From: an uncultured Kordiimonas sp.
GTDB taxonomy: Bacteria; Pseudomonadota; Alphaproteobacteria; Sphingomonadales; Kordiimonadaceae
NCBI GenBank assembly: GCA_947500295.1
Contig: CANMRM010000001.1
Span: forward strand, 186,001-250,000
Length of the DNA: 64,000 nt
Direction of reading: 5' to 3'
The notes beneath the pieces were generated by a model. The model was not told the origin of the DNA, searched no databases, and saw only the letters and a list, made by a program, of their open reading frames with translations. Below, piece by piece: positions 54,095-64,000 of this stretch. The position numbers and the translations under genes were made by a program. Position 1 is the stretch's first letter. Each line of letters begins with the position of its first letter.

Positions 54095-56023
54095 ATGGGT
54101 AAAGTAATCGGTATCGATCTGGGTACGACAAACTCGTGCGTATCCATCATGGACGGGTCCAAACCAAAAGTAGTTGAGAACGCAGAGGGCGCGCGTACAA
54201 CGCCGTCAATTGTTGGCTTTTCGGATGATGGCGAACGCCTTGTTGGTATGCCGGCAAAACGTCAGGCTGTTACCAACCCGACAGACACGCTTTTCGCGAT
54301 CAAACGGTTGATCGGTCGCACTTTCGACGACCCGACAACGCAAAAAGACAAGGGCATGGTTCCTTACGAAATCGTCAAATCTGATGGTGGCGATGCGTGG
54401 GTTGAAGCCAAGGGTGAGAAATATTCCCCGAGCCAGATCTCTGCGATGATCCTGCAGAAAATGAAAGAAACCGCCGAAAGCTATCTTGGCGAAGACGTGG
54501 ACCAGGCCGTCATCACGGTTCCGGCCTACTTCAATGACGCACAGCGTCAGGCAACAAAAGACGCCGGCAAGATTGCAGGCCTCGAAGTGCTGCGGATCAT
54601 CAACGAGCCGACAGCCGCCGCTCTGGCCTACGGACTTGAAAAAGAAGATGGTCACACAATTGCTGTGTTTGACCTGGGCGGTGGTACATTTGACGTGTCC
54701 ATCCTTGAAATCGGCGACGGTGTATTTGAAGTGAAGTCCACGAACGGGGATACGTTCCTTGGCGGTGAAGACTTCGATATGCGCCTTGTGGATTATCTTG
54801 CTGACGAGTTCAAAAAAGAGAACACAATCGACCTGCGGCAAGACAAGATGGCCCTTCAGCGTCTCAAGGAAGCTGCGGAAAAAGCCAAGATTGAATTGTC
54901 TTCTTCACAACAGACCGAGGTGAACCTGCCATTTATCACGGCTGATGCTTCCGGTCCGAAGCACCTGCAAATCAAAATGACGCGGGCGAAGCTTGAAAGC
55001 CTGGTTGAAGATCTTGTGAAGCGTACGCTTGAGCCTTGCAAAAAGGCACTCAAGGATGCCGGTCTTGCTGCTGGTGAAATTGACGATGTAATCCTCGTCG
55101 GTGGCCAGACCCGTATGCCGAAAATCCAGGAGATCGTGAAAGACTTCTTTGGGCGCGAACCCCACAAGGGTGTTAACCCTGACGAAGTTGTAGCGATGGG
55201 TGCTGCTATTCAGGCTGGCGTTCTGCAGGGAGACGTGAAAGACGTGCTTCTGCTGGATGTTACGCCGCTGTCGCTTGGAATTGAGACGCTGGGCGGCGTA
55301 TTCACCCGTCTTATTGAGCGCAACACAACGATCCCGACGAAGAAGTCTCAGGTATTCTCTACAGCTGAAGACAACCAGGGCGCCGTGACAATCCGCGTGT
55401 TCCAGGGTGAGCGGGAGATGGCTGCAGACAACAAATTGCTTGGCCAGTTTGATCTTGTGGGTATTCCGGCCGCACCACGCGGTGTTCCGCAGATCGAAGT
55501 AACTTTCGACATCGACGCCAACGGTATCGTGAATGTGTCTGCGAAAGACAAAGGCACAGGCAAAGAGCAGCAGATCCGCATTCAGGCTTCTGGTGGTCTG
55601 TCGGACGATGATATCGATGCAATGGTCAAGGATGCGGAAGCAAACGCTGAAGCAGACAAGGTCCGCAAAGAGCTTGTCGAAGCCAAGAACCAGGGCGAAG
55701 CGCTTATCCACACTGCTGAAAAGAATGTGGAAGAGCACAAGGACAAGGTTTCAGACGAAGATAAAGCTGCGATTGAAACAGCCATTACTGAGTTGAAAAC
55801 CGAGCTCGAAGGCGAAGACGTTGAGGCCATCAAGGCAAAAACTGAAGCGCTGGCGCAAGCTTCGATGAAGCTTGGTGAAGCCATCTACAAAGAAGCGCAG
55901 GAAGCAGGCGGCGATGCCGCGGCTGCTGATGCCGCGGCTCAGGCTGCTGAAGCTGGTGAAAAAGCTGAAGACGATGTTGTTGATGTTGACTTCGAAGAAG
56001 TCGACGAAGACGACAAGAAGTAA
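54095..56023 (+). CDS. dnaK: Chaperone protein DnaK (Hsp70)
   Basis: 642 residues. ATPase domain with [14 protein letters not shown] near residue 5, [20 protein letters not shown] near 138, [16 protein letters not shown] near 193 and [13 protein letters not shown] near 333; linker [14 protein letters not shown] near 388; then the substrate domain and an acidic Ala-rich tail ending EEVDEDDKK. Folds proteins with DnaJ and GrpE. Alphaproteobacterial length and tail. Followed by a hairpin and dnaJ. Confidence 0.98.
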
Positions 56024-56051
56024 TCGGGTGGTTTGACCACACCCCAGGTTA

Positions 56052-56082
56052 ATGCCGCTTCAGCTTGTTGCTGGAGCGGCAT
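56052..56082 (+). other. Stem-loop between dnaK and dnaJ
   Basis: ATGCCGCT-T-CAGC, loop TTGTT, GCTG-G-AGCGGCAT: thirteen pairs with one T-G pair. No T run follows on either strand, so it is not a typical terminator; it may be an RNA processing or stabilising element that sets the dnaK:dnaJ ratio. Confidence 0.65.
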
Positions 56083-56142
56083 CGTCACAACAGGGGGTGG
56101 TCATCCTCTCAGGCTTTTCGTTAAAGCTTCGGGACAAAGCCA

Positions 56143-57276
56143 ATGGCAAAAACAGATTATTATGAGCTTCTGGGCGTCGGCAAGGACGCTGATGCGGCAA
56201 CGCTGAAAAAAGCGTTTCGTAAAAAAGCGATGGAGTTTCACCCGGACCGGAACCCGGACAACCCGGAAGCGGAAAAAAAATTCAAAGAATTCGGTGAAGC
56301 CTACGATGTCCTGAAAGACCCGGACAAAAGAGCAGCATATGACCGATACGGACACGCTGCTTTCGAAAACGGCATGGGGGGTCCGGGCGGCGGCGCTGGT
56401 GCTGGTGGGTTTGATTTCTCAGACGTTTTTGAAGAGTTTTTTGGTGACTTCATGGGCGGCGGTCGACGCGGTGGCCGGCGCGGGCCCGCGCGCGGGTCCG
56501 ACCTGCGGTTCAATATGGAGATTTCGCTTGAAGATGCCTACAACGGCAAAACCGACCAGATCACCATCCCGACATCGGTTTCCTGTGAACCGTGTAGTGG
56601 GTCGGGTGCTGAACCCGGTTCGAGCCCTGAGGCATGTTCAACATGCGGCGGGGCTGGCAAGGTCCGGGCAAATCAGGGCTTCTTCATGGTCGAGCGCACT
56701 TGTCCCAGTTGCCAGGGCAATGGCCAGATAATCACCAACCCATGCAAAGTGTGTCGCGGTGCGGGCAAGGTGCAGAAAGAAAAGACGCTTCAGGTTAAAA
56801 TACCAAAGGGCGTTGAGGAAGGCACGCGCATTCGCCTGTCGGGCGAGGGCGAAGCCGGAGCAAACGGCGCGCCGTCCGGTGACCTTTATATTTTCCTGAC
56901 CATCAAACCGCATGTCCTTTTCAAGCGTGATGCCGACCTGCTGTTCTGTCAGGTTCCCATCCCGATGGCGACCGCAACACTTGGTGGAAACATCGAAGTG
57001 CCAACAATCGAAGGCAAAAGGGCCCGTATCAAAATTCCTGCTGGCACGCAGAGCGGCAGGCAGTTTCGCCTCAAGGGCAAGGGCATGCCCGAGCTTAATG
57101 GCGGGTTTGTGGGCGACATGATCATCGAAACGCAAGTTGAAACGCCCGTCAATCTGACGAAACGTCAGAAAGAACTGATGGAGGAGTTTGCTGCCGAAGG
57201 GGGTGATACTGTGTCCCCGCAGTCGGAAGGTTTTTTTACCAAGGTAAAAGAACTTTGGGATGATTTGACCGAATAG
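56143..57276 (+). CDS. dnaJ: Chaperone protein DnaJ (Hsp40)
   Basis: 377 residues. J domain with [20 protein letters not shown] and the HPD triad near residue 33, Gly/Phe-rich linker (residues 76-115), four CxxCxGxG zinc repeats between about 145 and 205 ([32 protein letters not shown]), and the C-terminal substrate domain. Stimulates DnaK ATPase. 119 bases after dnaK, likely one transcript with the hairpin between, ending in a strong terminator. Confidence 0.98.
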
Positions 57277-60125: not shown

Positions 60126-61346
60126 ATGAGAATGGCTTTTTTCAGCGCGCTACTATTGTTCGGCCTGTCAGCGTCGGCTCAGGATAACCGGCCCGATGGT
60201 GTAACGGGGGCAACGTGGCAATTCGGGCCACTCAATCGTTGGGCCTATACACATATCCGCGAAATCCTGCCGACCAAGGATATTCCAAACGACTATCGGA
60301 CTGTGAGGCCCCTCAAGGGCCTCTCAGTTGCAGCTGACGATCTGGCCCTCGAACTTGATGGCAAGCCGGCAATGTTGTCCGAGGTGATGAAGCGACACTT
60401 TATGGACGGCGTACTCGTCCTGAAAAATGGTCGGGTTGTGGCGGAACTCTATGGCGGCACGCTGACACCTGAGCGGACACATCTCCTGTGGTCAGTTAGC
60501 AAAACGGTAACGGGAATGACGGCCGCCAGCGTTGCTGCAGATGGCCTTATCGACCTTGAAAAAACAGTCGCCCACTATGTGCCGGAACTGGCAGGCACCG
60601 GATGGGCAGACAACAGCCTGCGATTGCTTCTGGACATGCAGGACACGTCCAACTGGAATGAAGACTATGCCGCACCGGATAGTACCGTACGGCGGCAGGA
60701 TTGCTCGGACGGCTTGCTTACAGGCTCGATGTGTGAAGGTGTTCCTGTGGTTGGCAATTATGGTTTCTTGCCCGGCGTTGGTCGGGACGAAAGCCGTAGA
60801 GGCAGGTTTGTCTACAAATCGGGCACGACCGATGTCATTGCCTGGGTGCTGGAGGCTGCGACTGGAAAAAGATTTGCCGACCTTGTATCCGAGCGGCTTT
60901 GGAAACCCATGGGGGCAGAGCGCAGCGCCGGCGTCACCGTGGATGTGTCAGGTTTCACTCTGGCCAGTGGCGGCATGGTCGCAACATTGCGGGATATCGC
61001 CCGCATAGGCCAGCTCATGCTGGATAGGGGACGTGCCGGTGATAGACAGGTCATTCCTGCTGCATGGGTTGAGGACATTTTCGGGCAGTCAGGAGACCCT
61101 TCATGGTCGGGACCTGCGCCGGATGGGTTTGCCCCCTATTACCGCTCTTTCGTATGGGGGCTCGGTGATGGCCGGGGCACGGTGCAGGCTCGCGGCGTGC
61201 ACGGACAGTTTATTGATGTGTCGCCTTCTACCGAAACCGTTGTTGCTATATTTTCGAGTTGGCCGGATGTGGAAGGCGGCGCGCCCGGCGTAGGGCATGA
61301 CGGTACCCAGGCCGTGATAGACGCCATCAAAAAGGCGCTATACTAG
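60126..61346 (+). CDS. Exported serine hydrolase (class C beta-lactamase family)
   Basis: 406 residues with signal peptide AFFSALLLFGLSASAQ. The penicillin-binding/beta-lactamase motifs are LLWSVSKTVTGMTAAS (S-x-x-K near residue 125), FVYKSGTTDVIAW (Y-x-S near 232) and GVHGQFIDVS (H-x-G-like near 358). Enzymes of this family include esterases, peptidases and 6-aminohexanoate dimer hydrolase, so antibiotic resistance is not implied. AAGGGGG precedes ATG 60126. Stop overlaps the convergent cupin gene by four bases. Confidence 0.87.
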   Translation: MRMAFFSALLLFGLSASAQDNRPDGVTGATWQFGPLNRWAYTHIREILPTKDIPNDYRTVRPLKGLSVAADDLALELDGKPAMLSEVMKRHFMDGVLVLKNGRVVAELYGGTLTPERTHLLWSVSKTVTGMTAASVAADGLIDLEKTVAHYVPELAGTGWADNSLRLLLDMQDTSNWNEDYAAPDSTVRRQDCSDGLLTGSMCEGVPVVGNYGFLPGVGRDESRRGRFVYKSGTTDVIAWVLEAATGKRFADLVSERLWKPMGAERSAGVTVDVSGFTLASGGMVATLRDIARIGQLMLDRGRAGDRQVIPAAWVEDIFGQSGDPSWSGPAPDGFAPYYRSFVWGLGDGRGTVQARGVHGQFIDVSPSTETVVAIFSSWPDVEGGAPGVGHDGTQAVIDAIKKALY

Positions 61347-61834
61347 CCGTCTTCATCAAGCCAATAATCGACATCTTCATTCTTCAGCCATACTTTTTGG
61401 CTTTCCTTCGCCGGTGTGCCGCCGGGGGCAACGCCGCCAAAGACACCGAATTTTCCGGAATTCGGATAATACACCACATCCGTTTTCTCCATAGTCGACA
61501 TGCAGAGGTATTCGGCAACCTGCCCGGAGGTGTTGGTCAGTTGGTGCGCCTCACCCGTACCTGCGGGCAATGTCACATAGTCGCCCTGACTAAGCTGTTG
61601 ATCTGTTCCGGCGACCGTTAGGGTAAGAGACCCCTTGAGGACCAGGATGGCTTCGTCGTTGGCATAGTGAAAATGTGCCGGACATGGTGACTGGCCTGGC
61701 TCAAGCCGGTACAGGCTACAACCTAAATTGCATGTGTCGGCGCCGAGTGTCAGATGCTTGCGCTCAACCCCATACTTACCGGGCCCCTCAAAAAGCAACC
61801 AGTCAAGTTTGTCGATATTGATGACCTTGGTCAC
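61343..61834 (-). CDS. Cupin domain-containing protein
   Basis: 163 residues, single cupin barrel. Motif 1 is CPAHFHYANDEAILVLKGSLTL near residue 52 (given here across H-x-H and E positions), motif 2 GTGEAHQLTNTSG near 92. Metal binding through these His/Glu residues is likely; substrate unknown. The opening LDWLLFEGPGKYGVERK is shared with other uncharacterised cupins of this type. Convergent with the serine hydrolase gene and 36 bases before the TetR gene's 3' end on the same strand. Confidence 0.87.
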   Translation of the reverse strand: MTKVINIDKLDWLLFEGPGKYGVERKHLTLGADTCNLGCSLYRLEPGQSPCPAHFHYANDEAILVLKGSLTLTVAGTDQQLSQGDYVTLPAGTGEAHQLTNTSGQVAEYLCMSTMEKTDVVYYPNSGKFGVFGGVAPGGTPAKESQKVWLKNEDVDYWLDEDG

Positions 61835-61870: not shown

Positions 61871-62503
61871 TCAGCTTTGCCTGGACGCCATCAGGTAAGG
61901 GGCAAGCAGCTGGGAAATTTCGTCGATCAGTGCTTCAGCCACTGTTTCGTCATTTTCTTCGATCGCCTGATCAACCAGTACGGACAGGGTTGTAACGGCT
62001 GTACGCAACACCAGTTCTTCCCTGTCCGCCCTGACTATTGTACCGGTTTTTGCGAGGATTTCCCGAAAAATGTCTGCGAGGGCGCTGCGCGGGCCGGGAG
62101 TTACGTCCCACAAACTATTTTGGCTGTTCAGCCAGCGCGTCAGAGCGCGAAAGTTGTCGTGACAACGAGCCGCTTCCCAAAATGTGTGCAAAAGCGATTT
62201 GATGACAGATTCCAGAGGCAGGTTTGCCGGCAGGGATTCGAGGGCCTTCAGCACACTGTTTTCGATGGTGCGATACGCACTGTCATGCAGCCGATCGAGA
62301 ATATCGTCTTTGTCATCAAAGTAGCGATACACAGACCCTACCGGGACGCCGGCTTTCATGGCAATCCGTGTTGTTGTCAGCTCATGAACAGGTACATGTA
62401 CCAGGAGTTCGCCGGCTGCTCTCAGAATTGCGGCCTGTCTTTCTTTTGCCCGGGCCTGTTTGGGGGCGGGTTTGTTGTTTTTCACCTGATCTGCTTTGTT
62501 CAC
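61871..62503 (-). CDS. TetR/AcrR family transcriptional regulator
   Basis: About 210 residues. DNA-binding domain RQAAILRAAGELLVHVPVHE, LTTTRIAMKAGVPVGSVYRYF with the recognition helix ending in VGSVYRYF, then the ligand domain WLNSQNSLWDVTPGPRSALA and AVTTLSVLVDQAIEENDE. GTG 62503 has AGGA eight bases upstream and leaves a palindrome 50 bases upstream as operator; ATG 62566 or 62578 in the same frame are alternatives that would place that palindrome at or just inside the coding sequence. Divergent from the beta-helix/cytochrome pair it probably controls. Start uncertain, family firm. Confidence 0.85.
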   Translation of the reverse strand: MNKADQVKNNKPAPKQARAKERQAAILRAAGELLVHVPVHELTTTRIAMKAGVPVGSVYRYFDDKDDILDRLHDSAYRTIENSVLKALESLPANLPLESVIKSLLHTFWEAARCHDNFRALTRWLNSQNSLWDVTPGPRSALADIFREILAKTGTIVRADREELVLRTAVTTLSVLVDQAIEENDETVAEALIDEISQLLAPYLMASRQS

Positions 62504-62552
62504 TTTCGCATCCTGCCGCTTTTTATCGACTATACTGTCCGGACACAAAAAG

Positions 62553-62565
62553 TGAAACAGTTTCA
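62553..62565. promoter_or_regulatory. Palindrome, candidate operator for the divergent TetR and beta-helix genes
   Basis: TGAAACAGTTTCA: six-base perfect arms around one base, seven bases before a plus-strand TTGACA (62572-62577) that could be a -35. Position between the divergent genes fits a TetR operator. Confidence 0.5.
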
Positions 62566-62632
62566 TTTTTATTGACATTGGATAGCTCGTTGCGGCACCT
62601 TGCCTGCTGCAAACATTCTTTAGGGGGAAGCT

Positions 62633-63874
62633 ATGCGCCAAATTGCAGGCCTTTGGATCGTAACATTGATCGCAACAGTGTTTTCTTTTTCCGTTACCGC
62701 CCAGACAATTGTTGAGGTGTCGATCGACGGCGACTTTCAGGAAAACCTGCAGGAAGCTCTTATTCTTGCGGAACCAGGTAGTATTATCCAATTGCCTGCC
62801 GGGAGGTTTGACCTCAAAACAGCTCTGTCACTTGATGTGCCAAACATAACGGTGCGGGGGGCAGGCATGGAGCAAACTGTGCTGTCTTTCGCTGGTCAGG
62901 TTGCAGGATCAGAAGGCTTGCTGGTTACCTCTGATGGTGTGTGGCTCGAAGGCTTTGCGGTGGAAGATACGCCGGGCGATGGCATCAAAGCAAAGGGTGT
63001 GGATCAAATTTCGTTCAAGGATATCCGTGTGGAGTGGACGCGTGGTCCTCATGCGGAAAACGGTGCATACGGTCTTTACCCTGTCGAAAGCAAAAACGTG
63101 CTGATTGATGGTGCACTTGTCAAAGGTGCATCGGACGCCGGCATCTATGTCGGACAAAGCCAACATATTATAGTGCGTAACAGCCGCGCCGAATACAATG
63201 TTGCGGGCATTGAAATCGAAAACAGCTATTATGCGGATGTTTTTGACAATGTCGCGACGTACAACACGGGTGGCATTCTGGTTTTTGACCTGCCCAACCT
63301 GCCACAGATGGGGGGGCATAGTGTCCGTGTGTTCAACAATCGATCGGTAAACAACGACACAGCCAATTTTGCACCCGAAGGCAATATCGTGGCGACCGTG
63401 CCAAAAGGTACCGGCTTGCTGATTATGGCCAACCACAATATCGAAATTTTCGGCAATGAATTTTCGGATAATGCGTCGGTAAATCTTTTGTTGGCAGCCT
63501 ACCCGCGAGAATACAATGACGAAAATTACAATCCCTTACCAAGAGGGATCTATATCCATGGAAATCGCTATGGTCGTGCCGGTTGGGAACCGGACATGGC
63601 GGTGGCGGAGCTGATTGCACCGGCGACGGGTCTGCCGATTCCAGATATCGTCTGGGACGGGGCCGTGGACGGAATATGGTCGGCTTTCTTCGGGCCGGAT
63701 GAGGAAGACCGTATCATCGTCAAGGAAACCGATGGAACCACTTTTGCCAACCTGCAATTTGTCAAAGACCTGATCCTGCCATGGGGAGCTGACGTGAAGA
63801 CAGACCTTTCTGATCACGAAGGGCGGCGGGCACCCATTGAACCGGTACGGCTACCACAGGAAGAAACGGAATAG
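62633..63874 (+). CDS. Secreted parallel beta-helix protein (paired with SO2930-type cytochrome)
   Basis: 413 residues. Signal peptide to about residue 24 (VTLIATVFSFSVTAQ). A right-handed beta-helix follows: ALILAEPGSIIQLPAGRFDL, ITVRGAGMEQTVLSFAGQ, VWLEGFAVEDTPGDGIKAKG, ISFKDIRVEW, HIIVRNSRAEYNVAGIEIEN, NIEIFGNEFSDNASVNLLLA. The C-terminal 100 residues are outside the helix. It matches the family described as the beta-helix member of a two-gene pair, with the next gene as the cytochrome member. Function unknown. AGGGGGA precedes the ATG. Confidence 0.88.
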   Translation: MRQIAGLWIVTLIATVFSFSVTAQTIVEVSIDGDFQENLQEALILAEPGSIIQLPAGRFDLKTALSLDVPNITVRGAGMEQTVLSFAGQVAGSEGLLVTSDGVWLEGFAVEDTPGDGIKAKGVDQISFKDIRVEWTRGPHAENGAYGLYPVESKNVLIDGALVKGASDAGIYVGQSQHIIVRNSRAEYNVAGIEIENSYYADVFDNVATYNTGGILVFDLPNLPQMGGHSVRVFNNRSVNNDTANFAPEGNIVATVPKGTGLLIMANHNIEIFGNEFSDNASVNLLLAAYPREYNDENYNPLPRGIYIHGNRYGRAGWEPDMAVAELIAPATGLPIPDIVWDGAVDGIWSAFFGPDEEDRIIVKETDGTTFANLQFVKDLILPWGADVKTDLSDHEGRRAPIEPVRLPQEETE

Positions 63875-63886
63875 GGAAATCCGGGG

Positions 63887-64000
63887 ATGTTTCGAGTACT
63901 CACGGCTATCGCCCTGTTGTCATCTTGTTTTACCGGAGCCGCCTTCGCGTTTCAGGTGAACGACAGTGCCTTGCTGGAAAAGCGGCCGCAGCGACTGCTT
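63887..64000 (+). CDS. N-terminus of probable SO2930-family diheme cytochrome c (3' end outside window)
   Basis: Only 38 residues are visible: MFRVLTAIALLSSCFTGAAF then AFQVNDSALLEKRPQRLL. The lipobox-like LLSSC or the later AFA cleavage indicates export. The opening after the signal, ending KRPQRLL, fits how these cytochromes begin, and the position 12 bases after the beta-helix gene supports it. No heme motif is within the window, so the call rests mainly on context. Confidence 0.6.
   Translation, partial: MFRVLTAIALLSSCFTGAAFAFQVNDSALLEKRPQRLL

Follow-up and report, generated by a model that had tools for sequence, protein, structure and literature searches.

A TetR-linked beta-helix/diheme cytochrome pair in an uncultured Kordiimonas as a candidate exported redox complex with a P460-like heme domain

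Our analysis suggests that a beta-helix gene and a diheme cytochrome gene lying side by side in an uncultured Kordiimonas encode one exported redox complex, in which the beta-helix would be the substrate partner, a cytochrome P460-like heme would carry out the oxidation, a class I c heme would receive the electrons and a TetR-family protein would repress both genes. We put the probability of this reading at about 0.5. In functional terms, the likeliest role of the pair is that of a heme-dependent oxidase or dehydrogenase outside the cytoplasm. The proposal draws on the conserved pairing and occasional fusion of the two proteins, the exchange of the beta-helix for another partner in some relatives, the distant likeness of the first heme domain to cytochrome P460/c'-beta, and a conserved operator and linked TonB receptor around the pair.

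Organization of the locus

The window, as we call the whole 64,000-nucleotide stretch analysed (G000:C1:186001-250000), ends inside the cytochrome gene, so the reading was continued into the genome (Table 1). The original prediction had described a beta-helix gene followed after 12 bases by a probable exported cytochrome gene, had named the two families as TIGR03805 and TIGR03806, and had expected two CxxCH motifs once the sequence was extended. Each of these points was borne out: the family-model search placed both proteins above their curated NCBIfam cut-offs, the cytochrome ATG stands 12 bases from the beta-helix stop, and the gene continuation past 64000, checked on the genome, encodes CKGCH at 179 and CAHCH at 256. 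The cytochrome also matches PF00034, showing that a class I c heme is present. Both proteins are probably exported, judging by eye from their hydrophobic N-termini. The divergent TetR gene that had been proposed likewise has the expected domains, TetR_N (PF00440, 43.0 bits against a cut-off of 24) and TetR_C_15 (PF17918). Its listed frame, 61871-62791, is over-long, and by eye the GTG at 62503, which AGGA precedes, makes a more likely start.

Table 1. Features of the pair locus in window coordinates.
Feature	Position	Strand	Evidence
TetR-family regulator, divergent	61871-62503 (GTG start at 62503 inferred)	-	PF00440 and PF17918
Operator-like inverted repeat AAAGTGAAACAGTTTCATTTT	62549-62569; core TGAAACAGTTTCA 62553-62565	.	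conserved core pattern; single strong site in genome
TTGACA, probable -35 element of the pair's promoter	62572-62577	+	sequence; 6 bases past operator core
Probably exported parallel beta-helix protein, TIGR03805, 413 aa	62633-63874	+	404.4 bits to TIGR03805 (cut-off 141.5)
Diheme cytochrome gene, TIGR03806	first 114 bases 63887-64000; genome L002:5887-6939 = window-equivalent 63887-64939, 350 aa	+	profile score 431.9 bits (cut-off 313.3), two CxxCH

Upstream of these genes the window contains dnaK and dnaJ (54095-57276), and in the window genome dapB is the gene after the cytochrome, 57 bases on. In two relatives (L042 and L044) the pair comes directly after dnaJ and is followed by dapB, which suggests a conserved chromosomal place. 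A small cupin gene adjoins the TetR gene in the window (61343-61834); none is found beside TetR in the nine Kordiimonadales loci L036-L044, and L127 has a 163-aa frame at the equivalent position.

Pairing, fusion and exchange of the partner

The survey of pairing looked for a beta-helix upstream only. It covered 142 loci, and setting aside 8 repeat contigs and 2 loci at contig ends left 132 that were testable. Of these, 114 have a same-strand beta-helix gene upstream; in 94 the two genes overlap or lie no more than 15 bases apart, some overlaps being the product of over-long frames, and in two they are far apart (412 and 1220 bases). In five more loci (L164-L168) the beta-helix is fused to the cytochrome, N-terminal in every case, and one chain of 881 aa scores above both the TIGR03805 and the TIGR03806 cut-offs. 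The claim that this is a recurring pair thus stands, and pairing together with fusion is strong evidence for one complex, the formation of which we consider well supported. In L164 and L165 the fused chain is followed by a second TIGR03806-like cytochrome, which is possibly the arrangement of Shewanella SO_2930/SO_2931.

Thirteen of the 132 loci came out of the upstream survey without a beta-helix, including L136 and L177, where a separate reading of the locus found one, and L058, which was assigned to none of the partner groups. Four proteins from three genomes (L169-L172) carry a GSDH domain N-terminal to the cytochrome domain in one chain, two of the four with CBM26 starch-binding modules; the three GSDH-fused cytochromes that were scored reached 151-234 bits, below the TIGR03806 cut-off of 313.3. 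GSDH is the next gene, and the beta-helix absent, in L079, L087 and L094, while neither partner was found beside the cytochrome in L055, L062 and L070. With GSDH fused (4) or adjacent (3) in seven loci that have no beta-helix, the beta-helix would fill the slot of a substrate partner, and the two proteins seem to occupy the same slot.

At least 586 stretches encoding cytochrome relatives were confirmed, the best 80 of which were kept, and 37 of 398 genomes sampled across the phylum exceed the family cut-off; among the matches listed, the nearest named relatives are from Kordiimonas and related MAGs. A genome of the same genus has a second, diverged copy of the pair (L201, G018 contig 3); downstream of it lie TetR and a TonB receptor, and its region contains the operator motif.

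A P460-like first heme domain

The first heme domain is probably a distant relative of cytochrome P460/c'-beta. In HHalign comparisons with PF16694 proteins it reached 93.0% (P 3.5e-7; 86.8% in global mode), against controls of 0.4% for the beta-helix, 0.2% for TetR, 0.2% for the reversed profile, 0.1-0.4% for five column shuffles, 0.1-2.3% with 16 unrelated families and 21.5% for the second heme domain, which has only the heme motif in common. With the CxxCH columns masked on both sides the value was 43% (P 2.5e-4; 17% in global mode), and comparisons with single P460 subgroups gave 3.2% (the subgroup with M. capsulatus-like proteins), 48.4% and 78.5%. The structure was compared through a heme-free model (pLDDT 94.5) of a 73% identical homologue, L036. 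Foldseek with this model returned nothing significant, its best hit (E 0.14) not being a P460. After realignment of the candidates for this homologue, the top 15 of the 49 listed rows were all cytochrome c'-beta/P460, within residues 22-229, at Z 7.4-5.3, the next row being at 3.7; the best VIA Z, 7.4, is below 8, and a Z below 8 is weak by itself. Searches of solved structures with the cytochrome sequence gave no match, and absence of a fold from the structure lists was not counted as evidence. A Pfam scan of the cytochrome gave no PF16694 match at E up to 0.05, so we file the protein as a probable distant fold relative and not as a member of PF16694. A canonical stand-alone P460-family protein is encoded elsewhere in the window genome (L214, G000:C2:435971-436357; PF16694 69 bits, CVACH).

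The residues of the putative heme pocket point the same way. In the profile alignment K102 falls in the column of McP460 Lys78, the cross-link position, and R74 in that of the capping Arg50, the roles of McP460 Arg50, Lys78 and Asp102 being those set out in Table 2 of PMC11928373. In the aligned McP460 chain, index 33 is R, 61 is K and 85 is D; adding an offset of 17 turns these into 50, 78 and 102, and Met104, as named in PMC6427953, fits the same offset. The window cytochrome has all of R74, K102, E121, R123, H183, H260 and M326. Among 114 homologue rows, up to 8 of which duplicate a protein (repeat contigs, cut differently), K102 is found in 114, as read from the profile alignment only (106 rows in the main alignment, and 8 gapped rows, L136 and seven others, read again); 113 rows have E121, 112 have R123, and all 114 have the two proximal histidines. 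R74 is present in 112 rows and replaced by His in two GSDH fusions; NsP460 carries His at the same place, according to PMC11928373. Glu121 or Arg123 may be the counterpart of the distal carboxylate, an uncertain assignment. Among His and Met positions, conservation of 95% or more is confined to H183, H258 (113 of 114 rows), H260 and M326, which leaves heme 1 with no evident sixth ligand unless His258 serves, as it could; Met326 fits the second heme. Taken together, the profiles and the model lend indirect support to a P460-like fold and pocket.

The beta-helix protein

The AlphaFold2 model of the beta-helix (pLDDT 94.9) finds its best structural matches in AlgE4/AlgE6 (Z 33) and RbmB (Z 30), with an rmsd of 2.5-3.1 over about 290-303 aligned residues and 16-18% identity. 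An alignment of 96 homologues shows 46 positions with at least 97% conservation. These include W135, Y146, Y149, D168, Y172, Q175, E194, E196, N197 and F218; none of the 46 is a His or Cys, and the protein has no evident redox cofactor. The repeat pattern suggests that many of the conserved residues share one face, which would be a binding site or interface. The AlgE4 epimerase has a catalytic histidine; with no conserved histidine in the beta-helix family, catalysis of the AlgE type (mannuronan C5-epimerization) is unlikely. Weaker likenesses lead to NosD (7osf, Z 28.1) and PF05048 (38.2 bits), and identity with the NosD copper-maturation protein was rejected at 34.2 bits to TIGR04247, for which the cut-off is 300.

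TetR and its operator

Of 20 same-family loci, 18 have a TetR gene of the same profile next to the pair; the exceptions are L125 and L128. The 13-base palindrome that had been noticed beside TTGACA is present and is conserved beyond chance: the stretch from TetR to the pair contains its pattern, TGAAANNNTTTCA, in 27 of the 32 regions, where shuffled sequence gives 0.0009 occurrences per region. The 32 include two repeats (L116 of L037, L117 of L039) and L201, whose region is 3.1 kb long with TetR on the other side; the strict count leaving these aside is 24 of 29. The five regions that lack the pattern are L040, L047, L124, L176 and L197, and degenerate forms can be seen by eye in L040 and L047. 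Most regions with the operator have TTGAC after it, which places the operator at a promoter. This conservation in TetR-bearing alphaproteobacterial loci supports a putative control of the pair by TetR through the palindrome. When the 21-base operator was searched in its own genome with up to 3 mismatches, only 3 other places were found, each with 3 mismatches; in the lack of a second strong operator, the genome's own regulon was set aside as a clue to the substrate.

A linked TonB receptor and other neighbours

Nine of 20 same-family loci have a TonB receptor as the next gene, and one lies at most two genes away in 21 of 139 loci, a set that includes 8 repeat contigs (L126, for instance, repeats L041). 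A profile seeded only with seven pair-linked receptors from Kordiimonadales gave 543-748 bits to intact pair-linked receptors outside the seed group (L179-L181, L184, L188, L201) and 32-221 bits to other receptors in the loci, including opposite-strand ones two genes off in L198 and L199; a specific receptor subfamily therefore travels with the pair. Pieces of pair-linked receptors scored 330 bits in L046, at a contig end, and 368 and 274 bits in L136. The window genome has no TonB receptor beside the pair and no close copy elsewhere, the best match being 159 bits over residues 7-239. In L130, L131, L132 and L135 a dapB-like frame lies downstream of the receptor, and since dapB follows the cytochrome in the window genome, the receptor came or went between cytochrome and dapB. 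Four plasmid records are found among the pair loci; in the one examined, L136 of Novosphingobium, the TonB receptor gene lies upstream of the pair and is interrupted by an IS5-family transposase.

No dominant pathway appeared in the neighbour scan, which covered 106 of 136 dereplicated neighbours outside Kordiimonadales (AraC 5, beta-lactamase fold 4, TonB 4, ABC 3, P450 2, sulfatase 2). The P450s were assigned by Pfam in L060 and L198, with similar frames, by similarity, in L062 and L199; L198 also has an FAD_binding_2 enzyme, KstD-like by eye, and NmrA, and L166 has FadL. A steroid or terpenoid pathway, considered on account of these neighbours, was not retained, as the lineages are too few. 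L198 and L199, both 1.4-Mb alphaproteobacterial genomes, share a same-strand run of FAD_binding_2 enzyme, NmrA, cytochrome P450, beta-helix, cytochrome and GFA-like protein, three of these genes having a Pfam basis, in L198. The hints about the substrate conflict: the beta-helix fold, GSDH, CBM26 and sulfatase neighbours point to a carbohydrate, whereas P450, FadL and FAD_binding_2 neighbours in a few loci point to a hydrophobic compound.

Discussion

In the mechanism that we favour, the beta-helix, apparently with a groove, would form the substrate side and bind its substrate, probably a glycan or other organic molecule, along the strongly conserved face. The N-terminal domain of the cytochrome, with its P460/c'-beta-like fold and an open, probably lysine-modified heme, would be the likely site of oxidation; in this heme 1 pocket His183 would be the proximal ligand, with Arg74 above the heme, Lys102 at the cross-link position and Glu121 nearby, and the C-terminal class I c heme (His260/Met326) would take the electrons away. 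TetR, acting at the TGAAANNNTTTCA operator, would keep the pair repressed in the absence of a ligand derived from the substrate, and in some relatives the specific TonB receptor may import the substrate or the product. The extracytoplasmic oxidation suggested in the original prediction is plausible, with the P460-like heme pocket now as the candidate site. A much wider generalization, which we find doubtful, would make TIGR03806 a large unrecognized class of lysine-cross-linked P460-type enzymes. Either the beta-helix or GSDH, as interchangeable partners, would present these enzymes with the substrate, an organic compound that is probably a polymer or carbohydrate-like, and they would oxidize it outside the nitrogen chemistry linked so far to P460 hemes.

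The main rival, possible and clearly less probable than a complex with its own oxidizing heme, is that the cytochrome serves as an electron relay only, accepting the electrons of its partner (GSDH, the beta-helix or an unseen enzyme), while the P460-like domain is a structural remnant. GSDH-type dehydrogenases require an electron acceptor, and a relay would account for the cytochrome after GSDH in one chain and for the class I c heme (PF00034). It would not need the near-invariant Lys102, Arg74, Glu121 and Arg123, however, and a beta-helix with neither conserved Cys or His nor an evident redox cofactor also speaks against it. These same pocket residues, together with the fold, resemble P460/c'-beta and could instead suggest that a small molecule (hydroxylamine, NO or peroxide) is detoxified or sensed while the beta-helix serves as scaffold; NH2OH is a substrate of known P460s, and a gas-binding role has been proposed for c'-beta proteins (PMC11928373). 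We hold this to be improbable, since it accounts neither for the TonB linkage nor for the partner, beta-helix or GSDH, that the cytochrome usually has.

GSDH partners, which suggest the oxidation of organic substrates, also weigh against an outer-membrane electron outlet to external acceptors, as assumed for Shewanella SO_2930/SO_2931; we judge such a role a little less probable again. In its favour, one network paper lists SO_2930 and SO_2931 among outer-membrane or extracellular c-type cytochromes, another paper groups SO2931 with Fe/Mn oxide reduction, and a lipobox-like start is found in 4 of 4 fusion chains inspected (of five). The location of SO_2930/SO_2931 is itself inferred in those papers, and SO_2931 would belong to the TIGR03806-type family. 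The 7osf and PF05048 matches, finally, would agree with a NosD-like maturation role, in which the beta-helix delivers a metal or matures a heme protein and binds no substrate. This is the least credible of the alternatives and very unlikely in our view: NosD ranks under polysaccharide epimerases and lyases, a NosFY-like partner is not consistently present (ABC_tran in 3 of 106 neighbours), and loci with GSDH have the cytochrome but no beta-helix.

Comparison with known systems

The pair is already known as two families with no described function: the NCBIfam names of TIGR03805 and TIGR03806 state none, and we found no functional study of the pair in the open-licence PMC literature. Nor did we find in that literature or in the family names the P460-like reading, the exchange with GSDH, the beta-helix fusions, the receptor subfamily or the conserved operator, and the words diheme, multi-domain, fused, fusion and beta-helix have 0 occurrences in the 2025 review PMC11928373. 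The cytochrome family is widespread, and an unlabelled diheme cytochrome becomes a testable enzyme; the exchange of partners between beta-helix and GSDH, with the linked TonB receptor, provides a concrete basis for substrate screens.

Compared with the TIGR03805/TIGR03806 pair at large (the latter being the NCBIfam 'SO2930 family diheme c-type cytochrome'), the window pair passes both cut-offs and has the order and close spacing of most relatives examined; it differs in that TetR and the operator are linked to it, while the TonB gene of some relatives is not beside it. For the beta-helix, the AlgE mannuronan C5-epimerases and the RbmB polysaccharide lyase are the nearest solved folds (Z 33-30), but sequence identity is low (16-18%) and the window family has no conserved histidine. 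The GSDH fusions (PF07995, glucose/sorbosone dehydrogenase fold) share a related cytochrome module and the partner-first domain order, with the GSDH fold in place of the beta-helix and CBM26 in two of four. With cytochrome P460/c'-beta (PF16694; McP460, NeP460) the window cytochrome probably has in common a beta-sheet domain with a CxxCH near its C-terminal end, and by profile alignment a Lys at the cross-link column and an Arg at the cap column. It differs in its greater length, in a sequence that has diverged beyond the reach of the Pfam model, in carrying a class I cytochrome c domain in the same chain and in belonging to a family usually paired with a beta-helix.
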